Shown here piece by piece: positions 1,950 to 23,983 of a stretch of DNA of 64,000 nucleotides. The DNA is from Pseudomonas triclosanedens. GTDB taxonomy: Bacteria > Pseudomonadota > Gammaproteobacteria > Pseudomonadales > Pseudomonadaceae. Every line of letters starts with the position of its first letter. The first letter of the stretch is position 1. A model generated the notes under the pieces. The model made no database searches. It had not been told where the DNA came from and saw nothing but the letters and a program-made list of their open reading frames with translations. The position numbers and the translations under genes were made by a program. The stretch spans positions 806,001 to 870,000 of the forward strand of contig NZ_CP113432.1 of NCBI RefSeq assembly GCF_026686735.1. The letters are read 5' to 3'.

Positions 1950-3482
1950 TCAGCCGAACAGCCGGCGCTCTTCCGGATGCGTCCGGCGGCGTACCAGCGC
2001 CCAGACCAGCAACACTGTGCCAAGTGTCGCCAGCGGCCAGACGCGCCACTTCAGATACGGCGTCAGGCCCTGCATCGGCACCACTTCGCCGTGCAGCACA
2101 CCTTGCTGGAACTGTGGAATCTGCACAGCGAGGTTGCCGTGCGGATCGATCAGCGCGGTGACGCCGTTGTTGGTGCCGCGGATCATCCAGCGGCCAGCTT
2201 CGAGGGCGCGCATCTGGGCCATCTGCAGATGCTGCAGGGGGCCGATGGACGTGCCGAACCAGGCGTCGTTGCTGATGGTAAGCAGCAGTTGGCTCTGTGC
2301 CGCCAGGCCGGCGGCGAATTCCGGGTAAACCACTTCGTAGCAGATGTACGGCGCTATGGCGTAACCCTTGGCTTTGAGCAGCGGCTGGTCCGCCGGGCCG
2401 CGGGCAAAATCGGACATGGGCAGGTCGAAGAAGGCGATCAGGCCGCGCAGTACGTCCTGCATCGGCACGTACTCGCCAAAAGGCACCAGCTTCTGTTTCA
2501 GGTAGTCGCCGCTGCCTTCGCCGACCACGGTGATGCCGTTGTAGTAGCGCACGCCGTCGGCACTCTTCTGGCGCACCGGCACACCGGTGATCAGCGCTGC
2601 CTTCCTGGCGGTGGCGACCCCGTTGATCATGCCCAGGTAGTTGGTGGCCTGATCCTTCAGGACGGGGACGGCGGTTTCCGGCCAGACGATGAGGTCGACA
2701 TCGCTCTGCGCCGCAGTCAGGTCGCGGTACAGCTCCAGTTGGTGGGTGATCGCTTTCGGATCCCACTTCATTTCCTGGGCGATGTTGCCCTGCAGCGCCG
2801 CCACCTTCAGTGGTGCGCCGGCCGGGGTGGTCCAGGCGTGCCCCTTGTAGGCGATGCCGACTGCCCAGGGCGCCGCCAGCAGCACGAGGCCGATGATCAG
2901 CCGCGCAGGGCGCAGGGTAAGGGCGGGGAAGTTGATGATCAGCGCCGCGCTCAGAGCGATGCTGAACGAGACCAGCCATACGCCACCCAGCGGCGCCAGC
3001 CCGGCCAGCGGGCCGTGCAGTTGGCTGTAGCCGGCGTAGAGCCAGGGGAAGCCGGTGAGGAACCAACTGCGGAACAGCTCCAGCACGACCCATAGCGCGG
3101 CGAATGCGAGTGCATCGCTGATCGGCGCGTTATTGCGCCGGAACAGGTGTGCCCAGACCCAGGCGGGCAGGGCGAAGAAGAAGGCGACGCCGGCGCTGAA
3201 GCCGATCACCAGGAAGGCCGCCAGCGGGCCGGAGGCACCGCCGAAATCGTGGATGCTGAAGTAGATCCAGCTGGTGCCGGCAATGAAGGCGCCGAAGCCG
3301 TACCACCAGCCGCGCCACAGTGCGGAGCCGGGTGTGGTGCCGCGCAGGCCGAGATAGAACAGGGCGAGAGACAGCAGCGCCAGCGGCCAGTAGCCGAACG
3401 GAGCCAGGGCCAGTGGGGTGAGCGCGCCAGCGACGAGTGCCAGCAGATGGCCTGGCAGGCCGGGACGTGTGATCCAGCGCAT
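1950..3482 (-). CDS. lnt: Apolipoprotein N-acyltransferase
   Basis: Adds the third acyl chain to the N-terminal cysteine of lipoproteins in the inner membrane, the last maturation step before Lol export. 510 residues, normal length. Several N-terminal membrane helices (residues about 10-210) precede a nitrilase-type periplasmic domain. The catalytic triad is visible: Glu269 in IVWPET, Lys331 in KQKLVPFGEYVP, and Cys381 in YICYEVVYPE. One more hydrophobic helix follows near residue 490. The ATG at 3482 begins MRWITRPGLPG. It lies downstream of corC on the same strand with a 205-base gap holding a palindrome. Confidence 0.97.
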   Translation of the reverse strand: MRWITRPGLPGHLLALVAGALTPLALAPFGYWPLALLSLALFYLGLRGTTPGSALWRGWWYGFGAFIAGTSWIYFSIHDFGGASGPLAAFLVIGFSAGVAFFFALPAWVWAHLFRRNNAPISDALAFAALWVVLELFRSWFLTGFPWLYAGYSQLHGPLAGLAPLGGVWLVSFSIALSAALIINFPALTLRPARLIIGLVLLAAPWAVGIAYKGHAWTTPAGAPLKVAALQGNIAQEMKWDPKAITHQLELYRDLTAAQSDVDLIVWPETAVPVLKDQATNYLGMINGVATARKAALITGVPVRQKSADGVRYYNGITVVGEGSGDYLKQKLVPFGEYVPMQDVLRGLIAFFDLPMSDFARGPADQPLLKAKGYAIAPYICYEVVYPEFAAGLAAQSQLLLTISNDAWFGTSIGPLQHLQMAQMRALEAGRWMIRGTNNGVTALIDPHGNLAVQIPQFQQGVLHGEVVPMQGLTPYLKWRVWPLATLGTVLLVWALVRRRTHPEERRLFG

Positions 3483-5009: not shown

Positions 5010-5997
5010 TCTTGCCGCCTTCGTTGCCGTGCAGGCGATTTTCGTAGGCCTCGTAGGCATCGACGATGCGCTGCACCAGTGGGTGGCGTACGACATCCTT
5101 GGACTTGAAATGGGTGAAGCTGATGCCGGGTACGTCGCGCAGCACTTCCATCACATGCTTGAGGCCCGAGCGGGTGCCGCGCGGCAGGTCGACCTGGGTT
5201 ACGTCGCCAGTGATCACCGCGGTGGAGCCGAAGCCGATGCGCGTGAGGAACATCTTCATCTGCTCGATGGTGGTGTTCTGGCTTTCGTCGAGGATGATGA
5301 AGCTGTTGTTCAGTGTGCGGCCGCGCATGTAGGCCAGCGGCGCGACTTCGATGACCTGCCGTTCGATCAGCTTGGCCACGGTTTCGAAACCGAGCATCTC
5401 GTACAGCGCGTCGTACAGAGGGCGCAGGTAGGGGTCGATCTTTTGCGACAGGTCGCCAGGCAGGAAGCCGAGCTTCTCGCCAGCCTCGACCGCCGGGCGC
5501 ACCAGCAGGATGCGGCGGATCTGCTCGCGCTCCAGGGCATCCACGGCGCAAGCCACCGCCAGGTAGGTCTTGCCGGTGCCTGCCGGGCCGATGCCGAAGT
5601 TGATGTCGTGATCGAGGATCGACTTCACGTAGCGCTGCTGGTTGGCGCCGCGGGGGCGGATGTGCGCCTTGCGGGTCTTCAGCGTCACCAGCGGGGCGGC
5701 GGGCTCGGCGGCCAGGTCTTCCAGGCCGGACTCCTGCAGGAACAGATGAACCATGTCCGGGGTCAGCTCGGTGCCGCTCTGTGCCTCGCGGTAGAGGCGC
5801 TGCAGAAGGTTTTCGGCCGCCTGGGTGCGCAAGGGATCACCGACCAGTTCGAACTGGTTGCCGCGGTTGCGGATCTCGATGTCCAGGCGTTTCTCGATCT
5901 GGTGCAGATGCTCGTCGAACTGCCCGCACAGATTGGCGAAGCTGCGAGCATCGAAGGGTTCCAGGATGAAGCGGTGAATATCCAGAGGGGCGTTCAA
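5002..5997 (-). CDS. ybeZ: PhoH-like ATPase (YbeZ)
   Basis: 331-residue cytosolic P-loop NTPase that partners YbeY in RNA metabolism. An N-terminal KH-like region (to about residue 110) precedes the PhoH domain with Walker A GPAGTGKT at 137-144 and Walker B region [13 protein letters not shown]. The later [10 protein letters not shown] and [19 protein letters not shown] are typical of PhoH. It overlaps ybeY by 8 bases. Miscalled in many genomes as a phosphate-starvation protein; nothing here suggests Pho regulation. Confidence 0.94.
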
Positions 5998-9146: not shown

Positions 9147-10433
9147 TTACTTGAGAGCGGCGAAAGCGCGCTCGGCGGCATCGAGGGTCAGCTTCAGCTC
9201 GGTTTCGCCGTGGGCGATGGAGGTGAAGCCGGCCTCGAACGCGCTTGGCGCCAGGTATACACCGCCGTCCAGCATCAGGTGGAAGAAGCGCTTGAAGCGT
9301 TCCACATCGCTGCCCATTACGTCTTCGAAGGTGACGATATCGTCGGCCCCGGTGAAGTACAGGCCGAACATGGCGGCGCCCGCCTGGGTGGTCACGAAGG
9401 GCACGCCGGCGGCGTCAGCGCGCTCTTGCAGACCCTGCAGCATGCGGCTGGTGTAGGTGGTCAGCTCGTCGTGGAAGCCGGGACGGCTGATCAGGCGCAG
9501 GGTGGTCAGTCCGGCGGCCATCGCCAGCGGGTTGCCCGACAGGGTGCCTGCCTGGTAGACGGGGCCGAGCGGGGAAATCTGCTCCATGATTTCGCGCTTG
9601 CCGCCGAAGGCGCCCACCGGCATGCCGCCGCCGATGATCTTGCCGAAGGTCGACAGGTCCGGGGTGATGCCGTAATGGGCCTGGGCGCCGCCCAGGGCGA
9701 CGCGGAAGCCGGTCATCACCTCATCGAAGATCAGCACGACGCCGTGCTGGTCGCACAGGCGGCGCAGGCCTTCGAGGAAGCCCGGTGCGGGCGGAACGCA
9801 GTTCATGTTGCCGGCGACCGGTTCGACGATGATGCACGCCACTTCCTTGCCGACTTCGGAGAGGGTCTTCTCGACGGCGGCGATGTCGTTGAACGGCAGG
9901 GTCAGGGTGTGCTTGGCGAAGGCCGCCGGCACGCCCGGGGAGTTCGGTACGCCGAAGGTCAGGGCGCCGGAGCCGGCCTTCACCAGCAGGCTGTCGGAGT
10001 GGCCGTGGTAGCAGCCTTCGAACTTGATGATGCTGTCGCGGCCGGTGTAGCCACGGGCCAGGCGGATGGCGCTCATGGTGGCTTCGGTGCCGGAGCTGAC
10101 CATGCGCACCATGTCCATCGACGGCACCAGGGAGCAGACCAGGTCGGCCATTTCCACTTCCAGAGCGGTCGGAGCGCCGTAGGACAGGCCGTGGTCGAGC
10201 TGTTTGCGAACGGCGTCGAGCACGTCCGGGTGGCTGTGGCCGAGGATCATCGGGCCCCAGGAGCCGACGTAGTCGACATAGCGCTTGTCATCCTCGTCCA
10301 CGACGTAGGCGCCTTCCGCGTGCTTGAAGAACAGCGGGGTGCCGCCGACGCTCTTGAACGCGCGCACCGGCGAGTTCACGCCACCGGGGATGTGTTTCTG
10401 GGCATTGGCGAAAAGCGTTTCGGAACGGGACAT
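9147..10433 (-). CDS. hemL: Glutamate-1-semialdehyde 2,1-aminomutase
   Basis: PLP enzyme that makes 5-aminolevulinate in the C5 haem pathway. 428 residues. The PLP lysine is Lys265 in [19 protein letters not shown] supplies the Asp contacting the cofactor nitrogen, and [18 protein letters not shown] is the phosphate-binding region. The ATG at 10433 ([24 protein letters not shown]) is the family start; the frame stays open upstream into the thiE end but without conservation. It follows thiE and thiD on the same strand. Confidence 0.97.
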
Positions 10434-10476
10434 GTGTACCTCGCGAAGCTGTCGGGTGCCGGGCGCGCGGGCGCGC

Positions 10477-11109
10477 TCAGCGGGTTTCGAAGAGTTGGCT
10501 GAAGGCGCGGGCACGCTGCTCGACCTGTGCCGGCGTATCGGCGGCGAACAAGGCGTGGATCACGGCGATCAGGTCGGCGCCGCGAGCGATCAGCTCGGGC
10601 GCGTTGTCGAGGGTGACGCCGCCAATGGCGACGCGCGGAACCTGCGGGAAGCGCTCGCGCGCCTGCTCCAGCAGTTCGACGCTGGCGGATGGCGCGCCGG
10701 GTTTGGTCTGGGAATTGAAGAAGCGGCCGAAAGCGACGTAGCTGGCGCCCTCGGCGACGGCCTGTTGGGCCAGCTCCAGGCTGGCGTGACAGGTGCCGCC
10801 GACCACCGCCTGGCGGCCGAGCAGGGCGCGGGCGGCCGCCAGCGAGCCGTCAGTCTGCCCGAGGTGTACGCCGACGCCCAGGCGCGCGGCCAGTTCGGCG
10901 TCGTCGTTGATGAGCAGCGTGGCGCCGAAGCGCTCGCACAGTTCCCGCAGTGCCTCGGCTTCGCGCAGGCGGCGCGAGGCGTCGGTGGACTTGTCTCGAT
11001 ACTGCAGCAGGCGTGCACCGCCTTTCAGGGCGGCTTCGACGTAGGGCAGCAGGCGGCCGCCGTCGAGCAGTTGGCTGTCGGTGATGGCGTAGAGTCCGCG
11101 CAGTTTCAT
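10477..11109 (-). CDS. thiE: Thiamine-phosphate synthase
   Basis: Joins HMP-PP and thiazole phosphate to give thiamine phosphate. 210 residues in a TIM-barrel. Visible are [10 protein letters not shown] near the substrate site, [22 protein letters not shown], and [28 protein letters not shown], all ThiE hallmarks, then [27 protein letters not shown]. The ATG at 11109 ([12 protein letters not shown]) is preferred over a GTG one codon earlier. It lies between thiD and hemL, spaced 28 and 43 bases, consistent with one operon. Confidence 0.96.
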
Positions 11110-16153: not shown

Positions 16154-16807
16154 ATGGTCTACCGCCAAACCGAAGCGCGTGTGCAGAAGGACGGAGAGCT
16201 GCGCGAGCGCATCCTCAAGCTCGCACTGGGCCGCGTGGCGGACGCCGGCTTCGCGGCGCTGACCATGCAGACCCTGGCCGACGATGCCGGTATCGCCACC
16301 GGCAGCCTGTACCGGCATTTCCGCGGCAAGGGCGAACTGGCCGCCGAAGTCTTTTCCCGCGCCAGCCAGCGCGAAGTCGATGCCCTGGCGGAGGTGCTGG
16401 CCACGCCAGCCAGCGCCACTGCGCGGCTGAGCGATGGCCTGCGCCAGTTCGCCGCCCGCGCCTGGGACAGCCGGCAACTGGCCTTCGCGCTGATCGCCGA
16501 GCCGGTCGACCCGGAAGTCGACGAGCAGCGCCTGGTCTACCGTGAGGCCTATGCCGCGCTGTTCGTGCAGTTGCTGGAGCAGGGCATCGCCCACGGCGAG
16601 TTCCCCTCCCAGCCCGTGCACCTGATCGCCGCCTGCCTGGTGGGCGCGATCGCCGAAGCCCTCGTCGGGCCGCTTTCACCGCCGGCGCGCGCTGGCCGCG
16701 ATGCCGGCCTGTCCAACCCTTCGCTGGAAGATGTCAGCGATGCTCTCGTCCACTTCTGCCTGCGCGCCGTCGGTGCGCCACTGCCTGTCCCGGAGGATCA
16801 GCCATGA
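16154..16807 (+). CDS. TetR-family transcriptional regulator
   Basis: 217 residues. The N-terminal HTH is clear: ILKLALGRVADAGFAALTMQTLADDAGIATGSLYRHFRGKGELAAEVF (about residues 20-67). The C-terminal ligand domain is helical and unrecognised. The stop overlaps the aidB start in ATGA, so the pair is translationally coupled and the regulator probably controls aidB and itself through palindromes just upstream. The ATG at 16154 has no strong Shine-Dalgarno sequence; initiation may be weak, consistent with a low-abundance repressor. Ligand is unknown; an acyl-CoA or fatty-acid signal is a guess from the neighbour. Confidence 0.88.
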   Translation: MVYRQTEARVQKDGELRERILKLALGRVADAGFAALTMQTLADDAGIATGSLYRHFRGKGELAAEVFSRASQREVDALAEVLATPASATARLSDGLRQFAARAWDSRQLAFALIAEPVDPEVDEQRLVYREAYAALFVQLLEQGIAHGEFPSQPVHLIAACLVGAIAEALVGPLSPPARAGRDAGLSNPSLEDVSDALVHFCLRAVGAPLPVPEDQP

Positions 16808-18453
16808 GCCTGCACCAGTACGCCGAAACCCACGAAGTGACCAACCAGGTGCCGCCGCTGGATGGCGCCAACCTCTACCGAATCGATCTGCCGTTGCAGG
16901 AATGGGTGCGCCGCTACGAAGGCGGCTGGGCCGAGCAGAAGCTCGATGCCTATGGCGCCCTGGCCGGTGGCCCGCTGATGGCGGCCGGCTTCCTGGCCAA
17001 CGAGAACAAACCGGTATTCAAGTCTCACGACCGCTACGGCCATCGCATCGACCTGGTGGAATTCCATCCGGCGTATCACGAACTGATGCGTGCCTCCATT
17101 GAAGCCGGCATCCCGTCGATGCCCTGGACCGATCCCCGCGCGGGCGCCCAGGTCGCCCGCGCGGGGTTGAGCTACCTGCACAGCCAGGCCGAGGCCGGCA
17201 CCGGCTGCCCGCTGACCATGACCTTCGCCAGCGTTCCCGCGCTGCGCCTGCAGCCGGATGTCGCCGAGAAGTGGCTGCCGAAAATACTCTCCACCCAGTA
17301 CGACCCGCGCAACCTGCCGATGGAGCAGAAGGCCGGCGTCACCATCGGCATGGCCATGACCGAGAAACAGGGTGGTACCGACGTGCGCGCCAACACCACC
17401 CGCGCCTACCCGGCAGGCATTCCCGGCCCGGGCCAGGCGTATGAACTGGTCGGCCACAAGTGGTTCTGCTCGGCGCCCATGTGCGACGCCTTCCTCACCC
17501 TGGCCTACACCGACAAGGGCCTGACCTGCTTCCTGCTGCCGCGCCACCGTCCGGACGGCAGCCGCAACGAGTTCTATGTCCAGCGCCTGAAGAACAAGCT
17601 CGGCAACTGGTCCAACGCCTCCAGCGAAGTCGAATATCGCGGCGCGCTGGCCTGGATGGTCGGCGAAGAAGGCCGAGGCGTGCCCACCATCATCGAAATG
17701 GTGGCGCTGACCCGCTTCGACTGCATGATCGGCTCCAGTTCCCTGATGCGCCAGGCGCTGACCCAGGCCGCGCACCACTGCGCCTACCGCCAGGTCGGCG
17801 GCCGCGTGCTGGCCGAGCAGCCGCTGATGCAGAACGTACTGGCCGACCTTGCGCTGGAAAGCGAATCCGCGCTGGCCCTGACCATGCGCATGGGCCGAGC
17901 ACTGGACCGCCAGCACGACGAGCAGGAAGACAAGTTCGCCCGCCTGGTCACTGCCGTGGGCAAGTACTGGATCTGCAAGCGCGCCCCCGCGATGATCAAC
18001 GAAGCCGCCGAATGCCTGGGCGGCGCCGGCTACGTCGAGGACACCATCCTCCCGCGGCTATACCGCGAGGCGCCGGTCAACTCCACCTGGGAAGGCTCCG
18101 GCAACGTGCAGTGCCTGGACGTATTGCGCGCACTGTCCAAGGAGCCGGGTGTGCTCGATGCGCTGTTCGCCGAACTGGGCGACGGCCACGGCGACGCGCG
18201 GCTGGCTTCGTTCATCGGCAACCTCAAGGCATCCTTCGCCGACACCCAGGACATCCAGTACCGCGCCCGCCAGCTCACCGAAAACGTCGCCGTCGCCCTG
18301 CAGGCCAAGCTCCTGCTGGAAGCCGGAAACTCGGTGGTTTCCGACGCCTTCATCGCCAGCCGCCTGGTCGACGGCGGCCGCGTCTACGGTACCCTGCCAC
18401 GCGGGGTGGAAGCGGCCGCACTGGTAGCTCGCTCCACGCCGCATCTGGCATGA
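16804..18453 (+). CDS. aidB: AidB-like acyl-CoA dehydrogenase family flavoprotein
   Basis: 549 residues, as in E. coli AidB (541), longer than ordinary acyl-CoA dehydrogenases (~380). Order: N-terminal AidB-specific region to about 175 (NQVPPLDGANLYRIDLPLQEW), FAD/acyl-CoA dehydrogenase core (GIGMAMTEKQGGTDVRANTT-like stretch, then GHKWFCSAPMCDAFLTLAY), then the C-terminal helical part with ECLGGAGYVEDTILPRLYREAPVNSTWEGSGNV-like signature. AidB binds FAD and DNA and is implicated in alkylation protection; the enzymatic role is unclear. It lacks an Ada-type neighbour here and is paired with a TetR gene instead. CRISPR leader 1 begins directly after its stop. Confidence 0.88.
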   Translation: MSLHQYAETHEVTNQVPPLDGANLYRIDLPLQEWVRRYEGGWAEQKLDAYGALAGGPLMAAGFLANENKPVFKSHDRYGHRIDLVEFHPAYHELMRASIEAGIPSMPWTDPRAGAQVARAGLSYLHSQAEAGTGCPLTMTFASVPALRLQPDVAEKWLPKILSTQYDPRNLPMEQKAGVTIGMAMTEKQGGTDVRANTTRAYPAGIPGPGQAYELVGHKWFCSAPMCDAFLTLAYTDKGLTCFLLPRHRPDGSRNEFYVQRLKNKLGNWSNASSEVEYRGALAWMVGEEGRGVPTIIEMVALTRFDCMIGSSSLMRQALTQAAHHCAYRQVGGRVLAEQPLMQNVLADLALESESALALTMRMGRALDRQHDEQEDKFARLVTAVGKYWICKRAPAMINEAAECLGGAGYVEDTILPRLYREAPVNSTWEGSGNVQCLDVLRALSKEPGVLDALFAELGDGHGDARLASFIGNLKASFADTQDIQYRARQLTENVAVALQAKLLLEAGNSVVSDAFIASRLVDGGRVYGTLPRGVEAAALVARSTPHLA

Positions 18454-18516
18454 GGAAAAATCGGTAGAAATTTTCGGCTTGAAAAATAGGTTATAGATCA
18501 ATAGGTTGCTGGAAGT
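18454..18516 (+). promoter_or_regulatory. Leader of CRISPR array 1 with IHF-like site
   Basis: The A/T-rich 63 bases between the aidB stop and the first repeat. Its last part, GATCAATAGGTTGCTGGAAG plus T, is nearly identical to the leader of array 2. ATCAATAGGTTG at 18497-18508 fits the IHF consensus WATCAANNNNTTR except for the first base, eight bases before the repeat. Confidence 0.8.
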
Positions 18517-18911
18517 GTGTTCCCCGCGTGAGCTGGGATGAACCGTTGCGGTCGACGCCCGTCACGGCGCGGAATGTGTGTTCCCCGCGTGAGCGGGGAT
18601 GAACCGCTCACGAATAAACGAATCAGCCATGCAATCCTGTGTTCCCCACGTGAGCGGGGATGAACCGGCTCCCGCATAAAAATCACCCCATCTGCCGTTG
18701 TGTTCCCCGCGTGAGCGAGGATGAACCGCACTTCCATCGCGGGTTCTGATGGTTTACTTCGTGTTCCCCGCGTGAGCGGGGATGAGCCGGATTTGCAGGC
18801 CGCAACGGGGGCTTGGCTTGCGTGTTCCCCGCGTGAGCGGGGATGAACCGATCATGACGATGATCGTCCTCACGCCGTACCTGTGTTCCCCGCCCGAGCG
18901 GGGATCAACCA
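18517..18911 (+). CRISPR. CRISPR array 1, type I-E-like, 7 repeats / 6 spacers
   Basis: 29-base repeats start at 18517, 18578, 18639, 18700, 18761, 18822 and 18883, separated by six spacers of exactly 32 bases. Core stem-loop is CCCCGC-GTGA-GCGGGG, preceded by GTGTT and followed by ATGAACCG, the I-E pattern also known from E. coli. Variation: repeat 1 has GCTGGG, repeat 3 CCCCAC, repeat 4 GCGAGG, repeat 5 ATGAGCCG; the last repeat has loop CCGA and ends ATCAACCA. The degenerate end lies distal to the leader, fixing transcription left to right. No cas gene lies in the window. Confidence 0.97.
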
Positions 18912-18959
18912 GACGGCCCGCGCCTCCGGGCAAACGCGCCGCTATCCGCACTTGCAACG

Positions 18960-19021
18960 GTGGAATCTGTCATAAGGTTTCCCAGCCCTTCCGCTCGTCC
19001 AGCCGGCGTGGAATCTGTCAT
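18960..19021. repeat. Two 14-base direct repeats upstream of amn
   Basis: GTGGAATCTGTCAT occurs at 18960-18973 and again at 19008-19021, 48 bases apart, in the 168-base gap between CRISPR array 1 and amn. Spacing is four to five helical turns, so a regulator-binding pair is possible. Confidence 0.55.
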
Positions 19022-19079
19022 CCCTTTCTTTGACGGATGCAGGCAAGATGGAGCTGATCGTTCAGACAGGATGCCCACC

Positions 19080-20555
19080 ATGACTCTCGAGACTGGCGAC
19101 GAGTTCTACGTCGCCGAGACCGCCGAAGAGGCCGTCGATCGACTGGCCGCGCTGCATGAGCGCGCCACCGGCGCCCTGAGCCAGGCGCTCAGGCGCTATC
19201 TGAAGGAGCGCATCGTTCCCGATGCCGAGCAGCGCGCCCAGTTCCGCTATCCGCTGCTGCGGGTGACCTACCTGTGCCAGGGCGAGGTGCCGTCCACCAC
19301 GCGCGCCTACGCCAAGGTCCAGGTGCCTGGCACCTACGCGGTGACCATCACCCACCCCAAGGCCTTCCGCAAATATCTGCTCGAACAACTGCGCCCGCTG
19401 ATGGACGATTTCACCGTGCGGGTGGAAGTCGGTGTCAGCGAGCAGAACATCCCTTATCCCTATGTAGTGGAAGGCGGCGATGAGCTGGGCGGCTCGGGCG
19501 TGACTGCCGCCGAGCTGGCGCGGGTATTCCCCAGCACCGACCTGTCGGCCACCTCCGATGGCATCGCCGACGGCCTTTACGAATGGGAAGGCGCCGACCC
19601 GATGCCGCTGGCGCTGTTCGACGCGGCGCGTACCGACTTTTCCCTGCGCCGCCTGGTGCACTACACCGGCAGCGACTGGCGCCACGTGCAGCCGTGGATC
19701 CTGCTGACCAACTACCACCGCTACGTCGACCAGTTCATCCATCTGGGCCTCGAACGCCTGCGCGACGACCCGCGCTTCGTGCGCATGGTCCTGCCGGGCA
19801 ACGTGGTGATCGAGCGCGGCATCGACGAAGGCGAGGCCAACTCCATCGTCGCCAGCGTCGAATGGCACCGCTTCCAGATGCCGGCCTACCACCTGATCGC
19901 CGAGGATGGCGACGGCGTGACGCTGGTGAACATCGGCGTCGGCCCGTCCAACGCGAAGAACATCACCGACCACCTGGCCGTGCTGCGACCGCACTGCTGG
20001 CTGATGGTCGGCCACTGCGGCGGCCTGCGTCAGTCGCAGACCATCGGCGACTACGTGCTGGCCCACGCCTACATGCGCCGCGACGGTATTCTCGACCGCG
20101 TGCTGCCGCCGCACATCCCGATTCCGGCGCTGGCCGAAGTACAGGTGGCATTGCAGGAAGCCGCGGCGCTGGTCACCGGCGAGCGCGGCGAGCAGCTCAA
20201 GCGCCGCCTGCGCACCGGCACCGTGCTGACCTACGACGACCGCAACTGGGAGCTGCACTGGGCCCAGGAGCGTCCGCTGATCAACCTGGCGCGGGCCATC
20301 GCGGTGGACATGGAAAGCGGCACCATTGCCGCCCAGGGTTATCGCTTGCGGGTGCCCTACGGCACGCTGCTGTGCGTATCCGACAAGCCGCTGCACAGCG
20401 AGATCAAGTTGCCCGGTGCGGCCACGGCGTTCTATCAGCGGGCAGTGAGCCAGCACCTGTCGATCGGCATCGCCGCCGTCGACCTGCTGCGCACTCAGCT
20501 CAACTCGCTGCATTCGCGCAAGTTGCGCAGCTTCGACGAGCCGCCGTTCCGCTGA
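19080..20555 (+). CDS. amn: AMP nucleosidase
   Basis: Hydrolyses AMP to adenine and ribose 5-phosphate, lowering AMP pools. 491 residues, near E. coli Amn (484). An N-terminal Amn-specific domain (RFQYPLLRVTYLCQGEVPSTTRAYAKVQ-like stretch, about residues 50-160) precedes a nucleoside-phosphorylase fold with MVGHCGGLRQSQTIGDYVLA and AVDMESGTIAAQGYRLRVPYGTLLCVSDKPLH-type motifs. The ATG at 19080 is preferred because AGACAGGA lies at the right distance; an ATG at 19071 is too close to it. The gene separates the two CRISPR arrays together with deoC and the SEC-C gene. Confidence 0.95.
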   Translation: MTLETGDEFYVAETAEEAVDRLAALHERATGALSQALRRYLKERIVPDAEQRAQFRYPLLRVTYLCQGEVPSTTRAYAKVQVPGTYAVTITHPKAFRKYLLEQLRPLMDDFTVRVEVGVSEQNIPYPYVVEGGDELGGSGVTAAELARVFPSTDLSATSDGIADGLYEWEGADPMPLALFDAARTDFSLRRLVHYTGSDWRHVQPWILLTNYHRYVDQFIHLGLERLRDDPRFVRMVLPGNVVIERGIDEGEANSIVASVEWHRFQMPAYHLIAEDGDGVTLVNIGVGPSNAKNITDHLAVLRPHCWLMVGHCGGLRQSQTIGDYVLAHAYMRRDGILDRVLPPHIPIPALAEVQVALQEAAALVTGERGEQLKRRLRTGTVLTYDDRNWELHWAQERPLINLARAIAVDMESGTIAAQGYRLRVPYGTLLCVSDKPLHSEIKLPGAATAFYQRAVSQHLSIGIAAVDLLRTQLNSLHSRKLRSFDEPPFR

Positions 20556-20636
20556 TCTGTGGCATGGCGCGGGCCGCCTGCCGGGGCGATGGTGTCGCCC
20601 TGGCCGCATGATGAGAGCCGATGGAGAGCGTTGCCG

Positions 20637-21413
20637 ATGATCGATCCTCGCAAGACCCCGGCGGGCCGTGTGCTCGCCTTGCTCGACCTGACCTCACTGA
20701 ACGAGGCGGACAACCTGCAGAGCACCGTCGATCTCTGCCGCCGCGCGCTGACGCCTTACGGTGAAGTCGCGGCAGTGTGTGTCTGGCCGAAGCTGGCGCA
20801 CGTTGCCCGGCGCACCCTCAACACCCTGGGTGGGCGTTCGGTCAAGGTGGCCAGCGTGTGCAACTTCCCCACTGGCGATGCTCCGCTGGCCGATGTGGTG
20901 GAAGAGGTGCGCAAGACGCTCGCCGAAGGCGCCGACGAGATCGACCTGGTCTACCCCTGGCGCAAGCTCAAGGCCGGCGGCGAGCCCGGCGCGGTGGAGT
21001 TGATCCGCGCCTGCAAGACGCTGTGCGGGCCGTACCACCGGCTGAAGGTGATCCTCGAAACCGGCGAACTGGCTGACCCCGAACTGATCCGCAGGGCATG
21101 CCGCGATGCCATCGCCGGTGGCGCCGATTTCCTCAAGACCAGCACCGGCAAGGCGTCGGTCAATGCCACGCCCGAGGCGGTGCAGGTGATGCTGGAGTGC
21201 ATCGGGGAGGCGGGGAGCAAGGTGGGACTGAAAGTTTCCGGCGGGCTGCGTACCCTGGCCGACGCGCAGCGCTACCGGGCGCTGGTCGAGGAACGCTTCG
21301 GTGCCGCCTGGATTACGCCGGAGCACCTGCGTTTCGGCGCCTCCGCGTTACTCGACGACCTGCTGCGCGAGCTGGGCGGCGAAGCCCGCCCGGTCTCCAC
21401 ACGGGACTATTGA
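20637..21413 (+). CDS. deoC: Deoxyribose-phosphate aldolase
   Basis: Cleaves 2-deoxyribose 5-phosphate to glyceraldehyde 3-phosphate and acetaldehyde. 258 residues. The Schiff-base lysine is Lys167 in FLKTSTGKA and the second catalytic lysine is Lys199 in GLKVSGGLRT, as in E. coli DeoC. The acid pair is in EIDLVYPWRKLKAGG. ATG 20637 has GGAGAG about ten bases upstream. Placed 81 bases after amn on the same strand, so the two may form a nucleotide-salvage unit; no deoA, deoB or deoD is nearby. Confidence 0.94.
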   Translation: MIDPRKTPAGRVLALLDLTSLNEADNLQSTVDLCRRALTPYGEVAAVCVWPKLAHVARRTLNTLGGRSVKVASVCNFPTGDAPLADVVEEVRKTLAEGADEIDLVYPWRKLKAGGEPGAVELIRACKTLCGPYHRLKVILETGELADPELIRRACRDAIAGGADFLKTSTGKASVNATPEAVQVMLECIGEAGSKVGLKVSGGLRTLADAQRYRALVEERFGAAWITPEHLRFGASALLDDLLRELGGEARPVSTRDY

Positions 21414-21518
21414 ACCCACGCGTTGACGCTGCGTGGGGCGGGCCTAGAATGCTCGCCTCGCGCCTAAGGGGCGCTTCTCCGGTCGGACTTTCGCCGACCC
21501 CTTTCTGCTGGTGATCCC

Positions 21519-22082
21519 ATGTCCTTTCGTGTCCCCACGCACCTGACCAACCCGCTGCGCCGCTTTGCCCGCCGCCTGGTGGACAACGGCACGCCGGAAG
21601 TCGCCGCGCCGCTGCCGCTTCCCGATGGCCTGGCCGGTGAGCCCTGGTATTCGGTGGGCCGGGCGGTGGATGGCCTGGGCGGCGAGCGCGTCGATGGCTG
21701 GTGTCTCGAAGAATGGCCGGGGCTGGCGCTGCGTGCGCACTTCAGCGCCTGCTGGCGCGATGCCCGGGGACGACTGTGGAACGTGTTGCCGGGTGCCACG
21801 GCCATCGCCTTCCTGCCCGATCCGAAGCGCCGCTACGAAGGCGTGCCGCTGCCGGAACACTTCCACGCCCTGGAGCGCGATGAGCTGCTGGAAGACTACC
21901 TCTGGCTCCGCCGCGAACTGGCCCGCCACCAACTCGACGACGAGCGCCGCGAAGTCCGCCAGAGCATGTGCCTGCGCCTGGAAAGCTGGCTGGAGCTGGG
22001 TGGCCGTGGCGACAAACCGTGCCCCTGCAACAGCGGCAAGCGCTACCGTGGTTGCTGCAGCAGGCGGGTCCGGGAGAACTAG
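21519..22082 (+). CDS. SEC-C zinc-motif protein, otherwise unknown
   Basis: 187 residues. The C-terminus ends in a SEC-C metal-binding motif, PCPCNSGKRYRGCC (Cys-x-Cys, then Cys-Cys), the element found at the SecA tail where it binds zinc and SecB or the ribosome. The N-terminal 150 residues (RRFARRLVDNG...WYSVGRAVDGLGGERVDGWCLEEWPG) are not recognised; a helical stretch (LEDYLWLRRELARHQLDDERREVRQ) precedes the motif. No membrane segment or signal peptide. Its stop abuts the leader of CRISPR array 2, so transcription from here could run into the array. Confidence 0.8.
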   Translation: MSFRVPTHLTNPLRRFARRLVDNGTPEVAAPLPLPDGLAGEPWYSVGRAVDGLGGERVDGWCLEEWPGLALRAHFSACWRDARGRLWNVLPGATAIAFLPDPKRRYEGVPLPEHFHALERDELLEDYLWLRRELARHQLDDERREVRQSMCLRLESWLELGGRGDKPCPCNSGKRYRGCCSRRVREN

Positions 22083-22154
22083 AAATTCACGCCGTTTTCC
22101 GGTGGAAACCGAAGGCTTGAAAAAGAGGCGGAGGATCAATAGGTTACTGGAAGT
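22083..22154 (+). promoter_or_regulatory. Leader of CRISPR array 2 with IHF-like site
   Basis: 72 bases between the SEC-C stop and the first repeat. Like leader 1 it has GGCTTGAAAAA followed by GATCAATAGGTTACTGGAAG plus T; only one base of the last 21 differs. ATCAATAGGTTA at 22135-22146 is the IHF-like site, again eight bases before the repeat. Confidence 0.8.
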
Positions 22155-22797
22155 GTGTTCCCCACGGGTGTGGGGATGAACCGCTGCGCATGCGTGAACC
22201 GACCGTTGCCGACATGTGTTCCCCACGGGTGTGGGGATGAACCGGTGGTGGAGCAGATGATTGACGCCAACCCCGGGTGTTCCCCACGGGTGTGGGGATG
22301 AACCGGGTTAGGGGTGGAGGAGGATTCGAAGCGCTTCGTGTTCCCCACGGGTGTGGGGATGAACCGGCGAACGACGACCGTGTTCCGCGTGCCGTCAGGT
22401 GTTCCCCACGGGTGTGGGGATGAACCGCGACAGGTAGCAGCGCCGACCGTCAGTTGGCCGTGTTCCCCACGGGTGTGGGGATGAACCGCTCGACCTGAAC
22501 AGCATGGCCAGACTCTTCTGGTGTTCCCCACGGGTGTGGGGATGAACCGGTTCGCGTGGAGGCGCGTGGAGCGCCCAGCAGGTGTTCCCCACGGGTGTGG
22601 GGATGAACCAGTTCCAGCGCTTCATCGAGGCGCAACCGGAGAGTGTTCCCCACGGGTGTGGGGGGGGGGAGCCATCGTGGTGACGGCTCGGCAGGTGGTG
22701 GACGTTGTGTTCCCCACAAACGTGGGGATGACCCCGGACCAGGGGGCGAAACTGCGCAGCCAACCCCCGGGTTCCCCGCCCTGGCGGGGATGAATCA
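22155..22797 (+). CRISPR. CRISPR array 2, type I-E-like, 11 repeats / 10 spacers
   Basis: Repeats start at 22155, 22216, 22277, 22338, 22399, 22460, 22521, 22582, 22643, 22707 and 22769. The first seven are identical, with core CCCCAC-GGGT-GTGGGG flanked by GTGTT and ATGAACCG; the eighth ends ACCA. Spacers are 32 bases (the last about 33). Repeat 9 has a run of ten or more G in place of GGGGAT, with a 3-base gain. Repeat 10 has loop AAAC and repeat 11 has core CCCCGC-CCTG-GCGGGG and starts GGGTT. Degeneration at the right end fixes the leader at the left. No cas gene is in the window. Confidence 0.97.
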
Positions 22798-22850: not shown

Positions 22851-23897
22851 CTACGGCGCCACTCCCGGCAGTTTCGGTACGAGCCATTGTTCTCCCGGCT
22901 TCGGCGCGCGGAAGCGTTCCGCTGCCACGCCGTGCTGCTGCAAGGCGGCAGCGAGGTCGGCGAGTGGGGTGAACTGGCCCTCGTCGCTGAGGCGGAAGGT
23001 GCCGAAGTGGATCGCCATGCTGCAGTGCGAGTCGAGCTGTTGGTGGGCCTGCACAGCGTCGTCGGGGTTCATGTGGTGGTGGCGCATGAACCAGCGCGGT
23101 TCGTAGGCGCCGATGGGCAGGGCGGCGAAACGCATCGGGCCGAAGCGCTGGCGTATCAGCGCGAATTCCGGGCCCAGGCCGGTATCGCCGGGAAACAGCA
23201 CCGGGCCGTCCGGTGATTCCAGCACGAAACCCAGCCACAGCGTGCGATTGGTATCGCTGCGCGAGCGTGCCGACCAGTGTTGCGCCGGTACGCCGGTCAG
23301 CAGCATGCCTTCGTGCAGCGGCAGGCTCTGCCACCAGTCGATTTCCACGATGTCGGCGAAACCGCAGGCGCGGATCAGCTCGCCGTTGCCCAGACCGGTC
23401 ACGACCTTGGCGGACGGGAAGCGTCGCGCCAGCGCGTTCAGGCTACCGATATCCAGGTGGTCGTAGTGGTTATGGCTGACCAGGATCAGGTTGATCGGCG
23501 GCAGTTCGTCCAGGGCCAGCCCCGGCGGGTGAATGCGCTTGGGGCCGACGAAGCTGAACGGGCTGGTGCGCTGACACCACAGCGGGTCGGTGAGGATGTT
23601 CAGCCCACGGTGCTGGATCAGCAGGGTGGCGTGGTTGATATAGGTGACGCGCAATTCGTCGCCCGAGACGCGCGCTGGCGTTTCCGGTCGGGCTTCGCGG
23701 CCAGGCTGGGGCTGCCAGGCCGGCTGACGGCCTCGTTCGCGCTGCCATTTGAGGAAGGCGCGCAGGCCGTGGTGCGGTCGGCGGTCGAGATTGTGGAAAC
23801 GCTGGCCATCGAAGTGTGCGGTCTGCGGGCCGCGGTGGCGGGCACCGAGACGGCCACTGAGGTTGAGCAGGGTGATCAGCCAGGAGGGGCGGCTCAT
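22851..23897 (-). CDS. MBL-fold metal-dependent hydrolase (NAPE-PLD / UlaG-like)
   Basis: 348 residues. The metallo-beta-lactamase signature HNHYDHLD is present, preceded by [22 protein letters not shown] and followed by [11 protein letters not shown] and MAIHFGTF, which supply the remaining metal ligands. This arrangement is that of the N-acyl-phosphatidylethanolamine phospholipase D-like family; the bacterial substrate is unknown. An arginine-rich N-terminus (about residues 20-65) lacks a clear signal peptide. The start [11 protein letters not shown] at 23897 is preferred to an ATG ten codons upstream. Ends 53 bases from the end of CRISPR array 2, convergently. Confidence 0.85.
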
Positions 23898-23983
23898 GGA
23901 AGTGCTCTTGCGGTGGGGACTTGGCACAACCTAGCATGCCGGCATTCGCCACACCCCTATCCTCGGTTACCAGTCGTTTCGCC

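Follow-up and report, generated by a model that had tools for sequence, protein, structure and literature searches.

The genome of Pseudomonas triclosanedens (RefSeq assembly GCF_026686735.1, contig NZ_CP113432.1; G000 below) carries two clustered regularly interspaced short palindromic repeat (CRISPR) arrays of type I-E, which are probably orphans with different ancestries, in a bacterium that has lost its cas genes. Both lie in a stretch of 64,000 nucleotides (G000:C1:806001-870000), here called the window, and positions refer to this stretch unless another genome is named. Array 1 stands directly behind an aidB-like gene, and array 2 follows one gene block further downstream, both on the + strand and 3.2 kb apart. 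G000 is one contig of 6,245,384 bases and was the only genome of its species in the searches, which covered 25 genomes of the genus (G000 included), 398 of the family and 369 of the class Gammaproteobacteria. Codes such as G003, G004 and G021 denote searched relatives, while G072 belongs to another genus.

Repeats and cas genes

Both arrays show the hallmarks of type I-E, namely 29-nt repeats, a CCCC-C/G-GGGG hairpin, 32-nt spacers, a leader and 61-nt spacing, and their leaders are of one class. Repeats of array 1 (consensus GTGTTCCCCGCGTGAGCGGGGATGAACCG, stem CCCCGC/GCGGGG) start at 18517 and then at every 61 nt up to 18883, enclosing six spacers of 32 nt. Those of array 2 (consensus GTGTTCCCCACGGGTGTGGGGATGAACCG, stem CCCCAC/GTGGGG) start at 22155, then at every 61 nt up to 22643, and afterwards at 22707 and 22769, enclosing 10 spacers. 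A preliminary description of this DNA had correctly reported these stems, their loops (GTGA in array 1, GGGT in array 2) and two odd repeats, the third of array 1 (18639; CCCCAC/GCGGGG, with an A.C mismatch) and the last of array 2 (22769-22796; CCCCGC-CCTG-GCGGGG). It is also right that the exchange of a G-C for an A-T pair keeps the hairpin. In array 2, a run of G takes the place of the 3' part of repeat 9 (22643-22672), and all three leader-distal repeats are altered.

Profiles for Cas6e, Cas1 and Cas7e found nothing in the single contig of G000 (no profile was run for Cas3, Cas8e, Cas5, Cas11 or Cas2). The same profiles detected G003 and G004, and those for Cas6e and Cas7e also detected G072. 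Similarly, when the 9-kb cas region of G003 was used as a DNA query, its matches in G000 were the two arrays alone (12 of 355 candidates scored). Within the reach of these profile and DNA searches, the arrays are orphans, with no cas gene found in the genome, and do not form part of a complete I-E system. Cas1 is present in two of the 25 genus genomes. Since the Cas proteins were not found, processing of CRISPR RNA is unlikely here, and the arrays are probably not functional in G000. The functional processing that the preliminary description read from the paired stems is thus not borne out, and the conservation of the hairpin most likely reflects past selection. Hairpin conservation should not be taken as a sign of present function.

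The stems of array 1 point the same way, as three of its seven repeats are broken, vs none of the 11 in array 2 (Fisher p 0.043). In addition to the A.C mismatch of repeat 3, there is a C.U at pair 4 of repeat 1 (18517), which is the leader-proximal copy, and a C.A at pair 3 of repeat 4 (18700). In an active array, the leader-proximal repeat is the newest copy and the template for the next one. A broken repeat 1 therefore suggests that array 1 has taken up no spacer since that mutation. The breaks lie at three different pairs and indicate decay rather than a half-step. In particular, the mismatch in repeat 3 is real, but its interpretation as an evolutionary half-step between the two stems was not retained, as unrelated breaks are also present and A.C does not pair. 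One caveat is that, in G080, a genome with Cas6e, one array has the A.C form in its consensus repeat, so that a half-step-like stage can exist.

The arrays of G000 resemble those of Escherichia and Salmonella with degraded cas genes. According to Touchon and Rocha (2010; PMC2886076), I-E arrays there occupy fixed sites despite loss or exchange of cas, leaders remain and terminal repeats degenerate. CRISPR1 and CRISPR2 of Escherichia and Salmonella share one common repeat in that account, whereas G000 has two repeat types, at an aidB-amn site in Pseudomonadaceae.

Origin of array 2

In a neighbour-joining tree of 62 leader columns, the array-2 leader falls within the aidB-type clade in 971 of 1000 bootstraps, and the leaders of arrays 1 and 2 thus share ancestry. 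Within this clade it groups with the upstream leader of G003 (909/1000), while arrays 1 and 2 alone group in 18/1000. Pairwise identities agree in that the array-1 leader is nearer to that of G021 (85%) than to that of array 2 (76%), and the closest to array 2 is G003 (78%). A BLAST search of the 398 family genomes with leader plus first repeat matched 10 genomes (two candidates scored per listed genome). The best non-self match by E-value was the G003 upstream array, with 81% over 84 nt; array 1 came behind it, with 83% over 70 nt.

The exact array-2 repeat is found in G072, in both arrays around a complete I-E operon adjoining aidB, although the leaders of these arrays are just 43% identical to that of array 2. 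None of the stretches fetched for the 25 genus genomes has another leader of this class where array 2 lies. A mosaic origin of array 2, by recombination with relatives, fits best with these observations. The preliminary description had named a finding that would speak against its local origin, the occurrence of both repeat types in unrelated loci with their own cas sets. This holds for the array-2 repeat in G072 and not for both types, arrays of the array-2 kind alone being seen in the fetched stretch of that genome.

The aidB site in related genomes

Each of the 25 genus genomes has aidB and then amn, separated by a gap whose length varies (in G003 across two adjoining stretches), and deoC comes next in 23 of them, the two without a match being G012 and G018. 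In G003 the gap holds an array with a GTAT loop, a complete I-E operon (Cas3, Cas8e, Cas11e, Cas7e, Cas5e, Cas6e, Cas1e and Cas2e) and an array with an AGGT loop. An orphan array with the GTAT loop occupies this gap in G021, a genome in which the Cas6e, Cas1 and Cas7e profiles were unmatched. Four further genomes (G010, G015, G006 and G023) have a solo leader with one degenerate repeat directly after aidB (Table 1), each with an intact GATCAATAGGTTG box in the leader. Together, the leader occurs at aidB in seven of the 25 genus genomes, G000 included. Because G003, G021 and the scars share site and leader, array 1 appears to be the remnant of a locus fixed at aidB. A repeat-like unit also stands behind amn in G019, but it was left out of the count because palindromes of a similar kind come after aidB in G019 and G022.

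The downstream array of G003 (L073, oriented 10074-10713) has the AGGT loop, but its most leader-distal repeat has the GTAT loop of the upstream array. This points to turnover or exchange of repeats within the locus. Repeat turnover inside a single locus does therefore happen, and the presence of two repeat types around one cas operon at the aidB site of G003 speaks in favour of the local change that the preliminary description had envisaged.

The complete loci of G003 and G072 have the same anchor as G000, at the 3' end of aidB, and the upstream array of G003 also has a leader of the class found in G000. Both contain cas3-cas8e-cas11-cas7-cas5-cas6e-cas1-cas2, none of which was found in G000 by the three profiles and the DNA query. 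Across the family, 34 genomes bear Cas6e; in 15 of these, cas6e follows aidB on the same strand at a distance of 6.7-13.0 kb. Three others lack an aidB match at E 1e-150, and in the remaining 16 aidB is far away or on another contig; one of the 16, G236, has aidB at a contig end, where linkage cannot be judged. Repeats of the same type also occur near aidB in genomes without a Cas6e or Cas7e match, at about 90 nt in G122 (two exact repeats), G275 (one) and G291 (12), and at about 600 nt in G223 (two).

A literature search found, in the collection searched, no paper tying a Pseudomonas type I-E CRISPR to the aidB / amn site. We suggest, tentatively and as a possibility more doubtful than not, that type I-E systems have a conserved home at the 3' end of aidB across Pseudomonadaceae, at which cas genes come and go while the scar of leader and first repeat persists, and that leader-repeat units can move or be swapped between species, founding new arrays such as array 2. 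If so, the solo scars would serve as landing pads at which cas genes, on their return, could restart immunity. The site presents full loci, orphan arrays and solo scars in related species, and thereby a stepwise view of CRISPR decay and its possible restart. This graded series is a more useful result than the pair switch, which is one more case of a well-known pattern.

Covariation at pair 5

The pair at which the two arrays differ also varies elsewhere in the repeat class. When A was fixed and its partner left free, 12 of the 369 class genomes matched, and all 11 besides G000 have T among the matches listed, which give the first places of each genome. In the family, 30 of the 398 genomes matched, and among the matches listed, for 24 genomes, the partner of G is always C, save for one repeat of G102, and that of A is always T, save for G080 and array-1 repeat 3. 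The G080 array (L210:4805-5575) has A.C at pair 5 in nine of its 13 repeats; this genome carries, besides Cas6e, a second array of another repeat type. The repeat of G027 differs from that of array 2 solely in the two paired bases, and is a cleaner comparison than that of array 1 with array 2.

Among 20 distinct repeats, pair 5 is GC in 11, AU in eight and other in one. These repeats were found with patterns fixing the other five pairs, and the test on them covers pair 5 alone. Paired cells amounted to 99.2% vs 95.5% in shuffles, cells changed on both sides to 8 vs 3.3, and the covariation score to 0.154 vs 0.081, each value being reached by 0/500 shuffles. Two measures, which count pairs or pair types, were not above shuffles (418/500 and 500/500 as high), because a single pair varies. 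A Fisher test of A/G against T/C (p 5e-8) was not used as proof, as it merges the searches with A fixed and unfixed and ignores relatedness.

The recurrence of this covariation indicates that the class has been selected for pairing, a point on which the preliminary description is upheld. The switch is real, and the phenomenon is long known. Kunin et al. (2007; PMC1896005) report compensatory stem changes for structured repeat clusters, and cas genes of the Ecoli subtype only near repeat cluster 2. The present repeats are of the same structured kind as this cluster 2 / Ecoli (I-E) group; a difference is that the switch here separates two arrays within a single genome, where cas genes were not found. 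We infer that the exchange between A-T and G-C is a polymorphism of the repeat class that preserves pairing, is nearly neutral and was fixed before cas was lost.

Spacer targets

Spacer 6 of array 2 matches 10 viral contigs at 27-30 of its 32 positions, with AAG, the type I-E protospacer motif, in nine of the 10. The matched gene was checked in two of the 10 and is in both the large terminase. The viral contigs are homologous and not independent of one another, and the search pattern was written from a reading frame of the spacer. When the whole of array 2 was compared with phage records, one weak 32-nt match was obtained, to a tail gene of Klebsiella phage KA2-1 (90.6%, E 0.05). The whole of array 1 gave three unannotated phage records at 60-80% identity. 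Against plasmids, array 2 gave 40 records (25 listed), of which 39 were at 60-80% identity.

Proposed history and alternative explanations

Array 1 would be an old, vertically inherited array, at the place that in G003 lies between the 3' end of aidB and cas3; the cas operon that once stood between it and amn would have been lost, and its repeats would now be decaying. Array 2, one gene block downstream, combines a related but distinct leader with a type of repeat that, in another genus, belongs to a complete I-E system. It would most likely derive from recombination with a relative whose leader was like that of G003, or be an old sister array, and would not be a recent daughter of array 1. 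With Cas proteins present, transcription from the leader, a Cas6e cut at the foot of the six-pair hairpin and interference by Cascade/Cas3 at AAG-flanked targets would be expected.

It is unlikely that array 2 arose, as the preliminary description held, as a copy of the array-1 leader and repeat within this lineage, followed by a compensatory double change. Such a copy would account for the shared leader class and box and for the proximity of the arrays on one strand; the two repeat types of G003, with the loop of one in the oldest repeat of the other, offer a parallel, and array 1 itself is only loosely placed in the leader tree. This alternative is kept for these reasons, but the leader identities and the bootstrap grouping given above speak against it, as does the existence of the exact array-2 repeat in another genus. 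The last repeat of array 2 can be read either way. Its G-C stem is as described and would suit a local copy, yet its loop is CCTG and not GTGA, and that stem is the commonest form (11 of the 20 distinct repeats), so that this repeat was not accepted as one of the array-1 type.

Two other explanations concern function and the meaning of the switch. The arrays might still be processed and used, by way of Cas proteins from a plasmid or from other strains, or might have a non-immune function, as the 11 intact stems of array 2 and the repeats near aidB in G122, G223, G275 and G291 would allow. We regard this as improbable, given a genome with no cas match, a broken leader-proximal repeat in array 1 and four genus relatives that retain just a decayed solo repeat. 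That the two-sided change is a coincidence, uninformative on selection for the hairpin, is very improbable indeed: the A.C consensus of G080 does suggest that the pair is dispensable, and two of the five covariation measures lie within the shuffles, but the 11 other class genomes with A all have T among the matches listed, and no shuffle in 500 reached the observed pairing.

Several points weigh against two orphan arrays of different ancestry, the reading that we prefer. Array 1 remains unplaced in the leader tree, as it groups with G021 in 31 of 1000 bootstraps, with G021 and the scars in 44, and with array 2 and the G003 upstream leader in 441, and the tree is built from its 62 columns by neighbour-joining alone. 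A donor having the leader and the repeat of array 2 together was not found among the 398 family genomes (two candidates scored per listed genome). The first eight repeats of array 2 are identical in a 28-nt core, and none of its 11 stems is broken; this is also compatible with recent activity or continuing constraint. Other strains of the species, of which one genome was searched, may still have cas genes. Finally, three of four array-2 spacer patterns had no viral match (four of the 10 spacers of array 2, and none of the six of array 1, were tried).

Flanking features

The features of the locus, and the solo scars of the relatives, are collected in Table 1.

Table 1. Features at the two arrays of G000 and solo scars at aidB in related genomes.
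Feature	Position	Strand	Basis and remarks
aidB-like acyl-CoA dehydrogenase	16804..18453	+	Pfam AidB_N and Acyl-CoA_dh; synteny in relatives; 3' end anchors the array-1 site
Array-1 leader with GATCAATAGGTTG box	18454..18516	+	Conserved at aidB 3' end in G003, G021 and the scars of G010, G015, G006, G023
Array 1	18517..18911	+	7 repeats of 29 nt, loop GTGA, G-C at pair 5; 3 stem-broken; terminal repeat altered
amn (AMP nucleosidase)	19080..20555	+	Pfam; present in 25/25 genus genomes
deoC-like aldolase	20637..21413	+	Pfam, synteny
Small protein, no Pfam match	21519..22082	+	Pfam scan, synteny; gene found in 16/25 genus genomes
Array-2 leader with GATCAATAGGTTA box	22083..22154	+	Homologous to array-1 leader from about 22100
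Array 2	22155..22796	+	11 repeats, loop GGGT, A-T at pair 5; first 8 with one 28-nt core, last 3 altered
Array-2 spacer 6	22489..22520	+	Matches phage large terminase gene, up to 30/32, AAG beside protospacer
Metallo-beta-lactamase-fold hydrolase gene	22851..23927	-	Pfam, synteny; right flank of array 2
Solo scar, G010	L103, oriented 5209-5302		Leader and one degenerate repeat
Solo scar, G015	L105, 4427-4520		Leader and one degenerate repeat
Solo scar, G006	L109, oriented 3130-3223		Leader and one degenerate repeat
Solo scar, G023	L113, 4526-4619		Leader and one degenerate repeat

The box GATCAATAGGTTG of the array-1 leader may be of the integration host factor (IHF) kind, with one mismatch to the consensus; GATCAANNNNTTR, 8 nt ahead of the first repeat, likewise has one mismatch to that consensus. 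The product of the gene at 21519..22082 has a C-terminus which we take to be SEC-C/YchJ-like. Between array 1 and amn there is a 14-nt direct repeat, GTGGAATCTGTCAT, at 18960-18973 and 19008-19021, which may be a trace left by the lost cas region.

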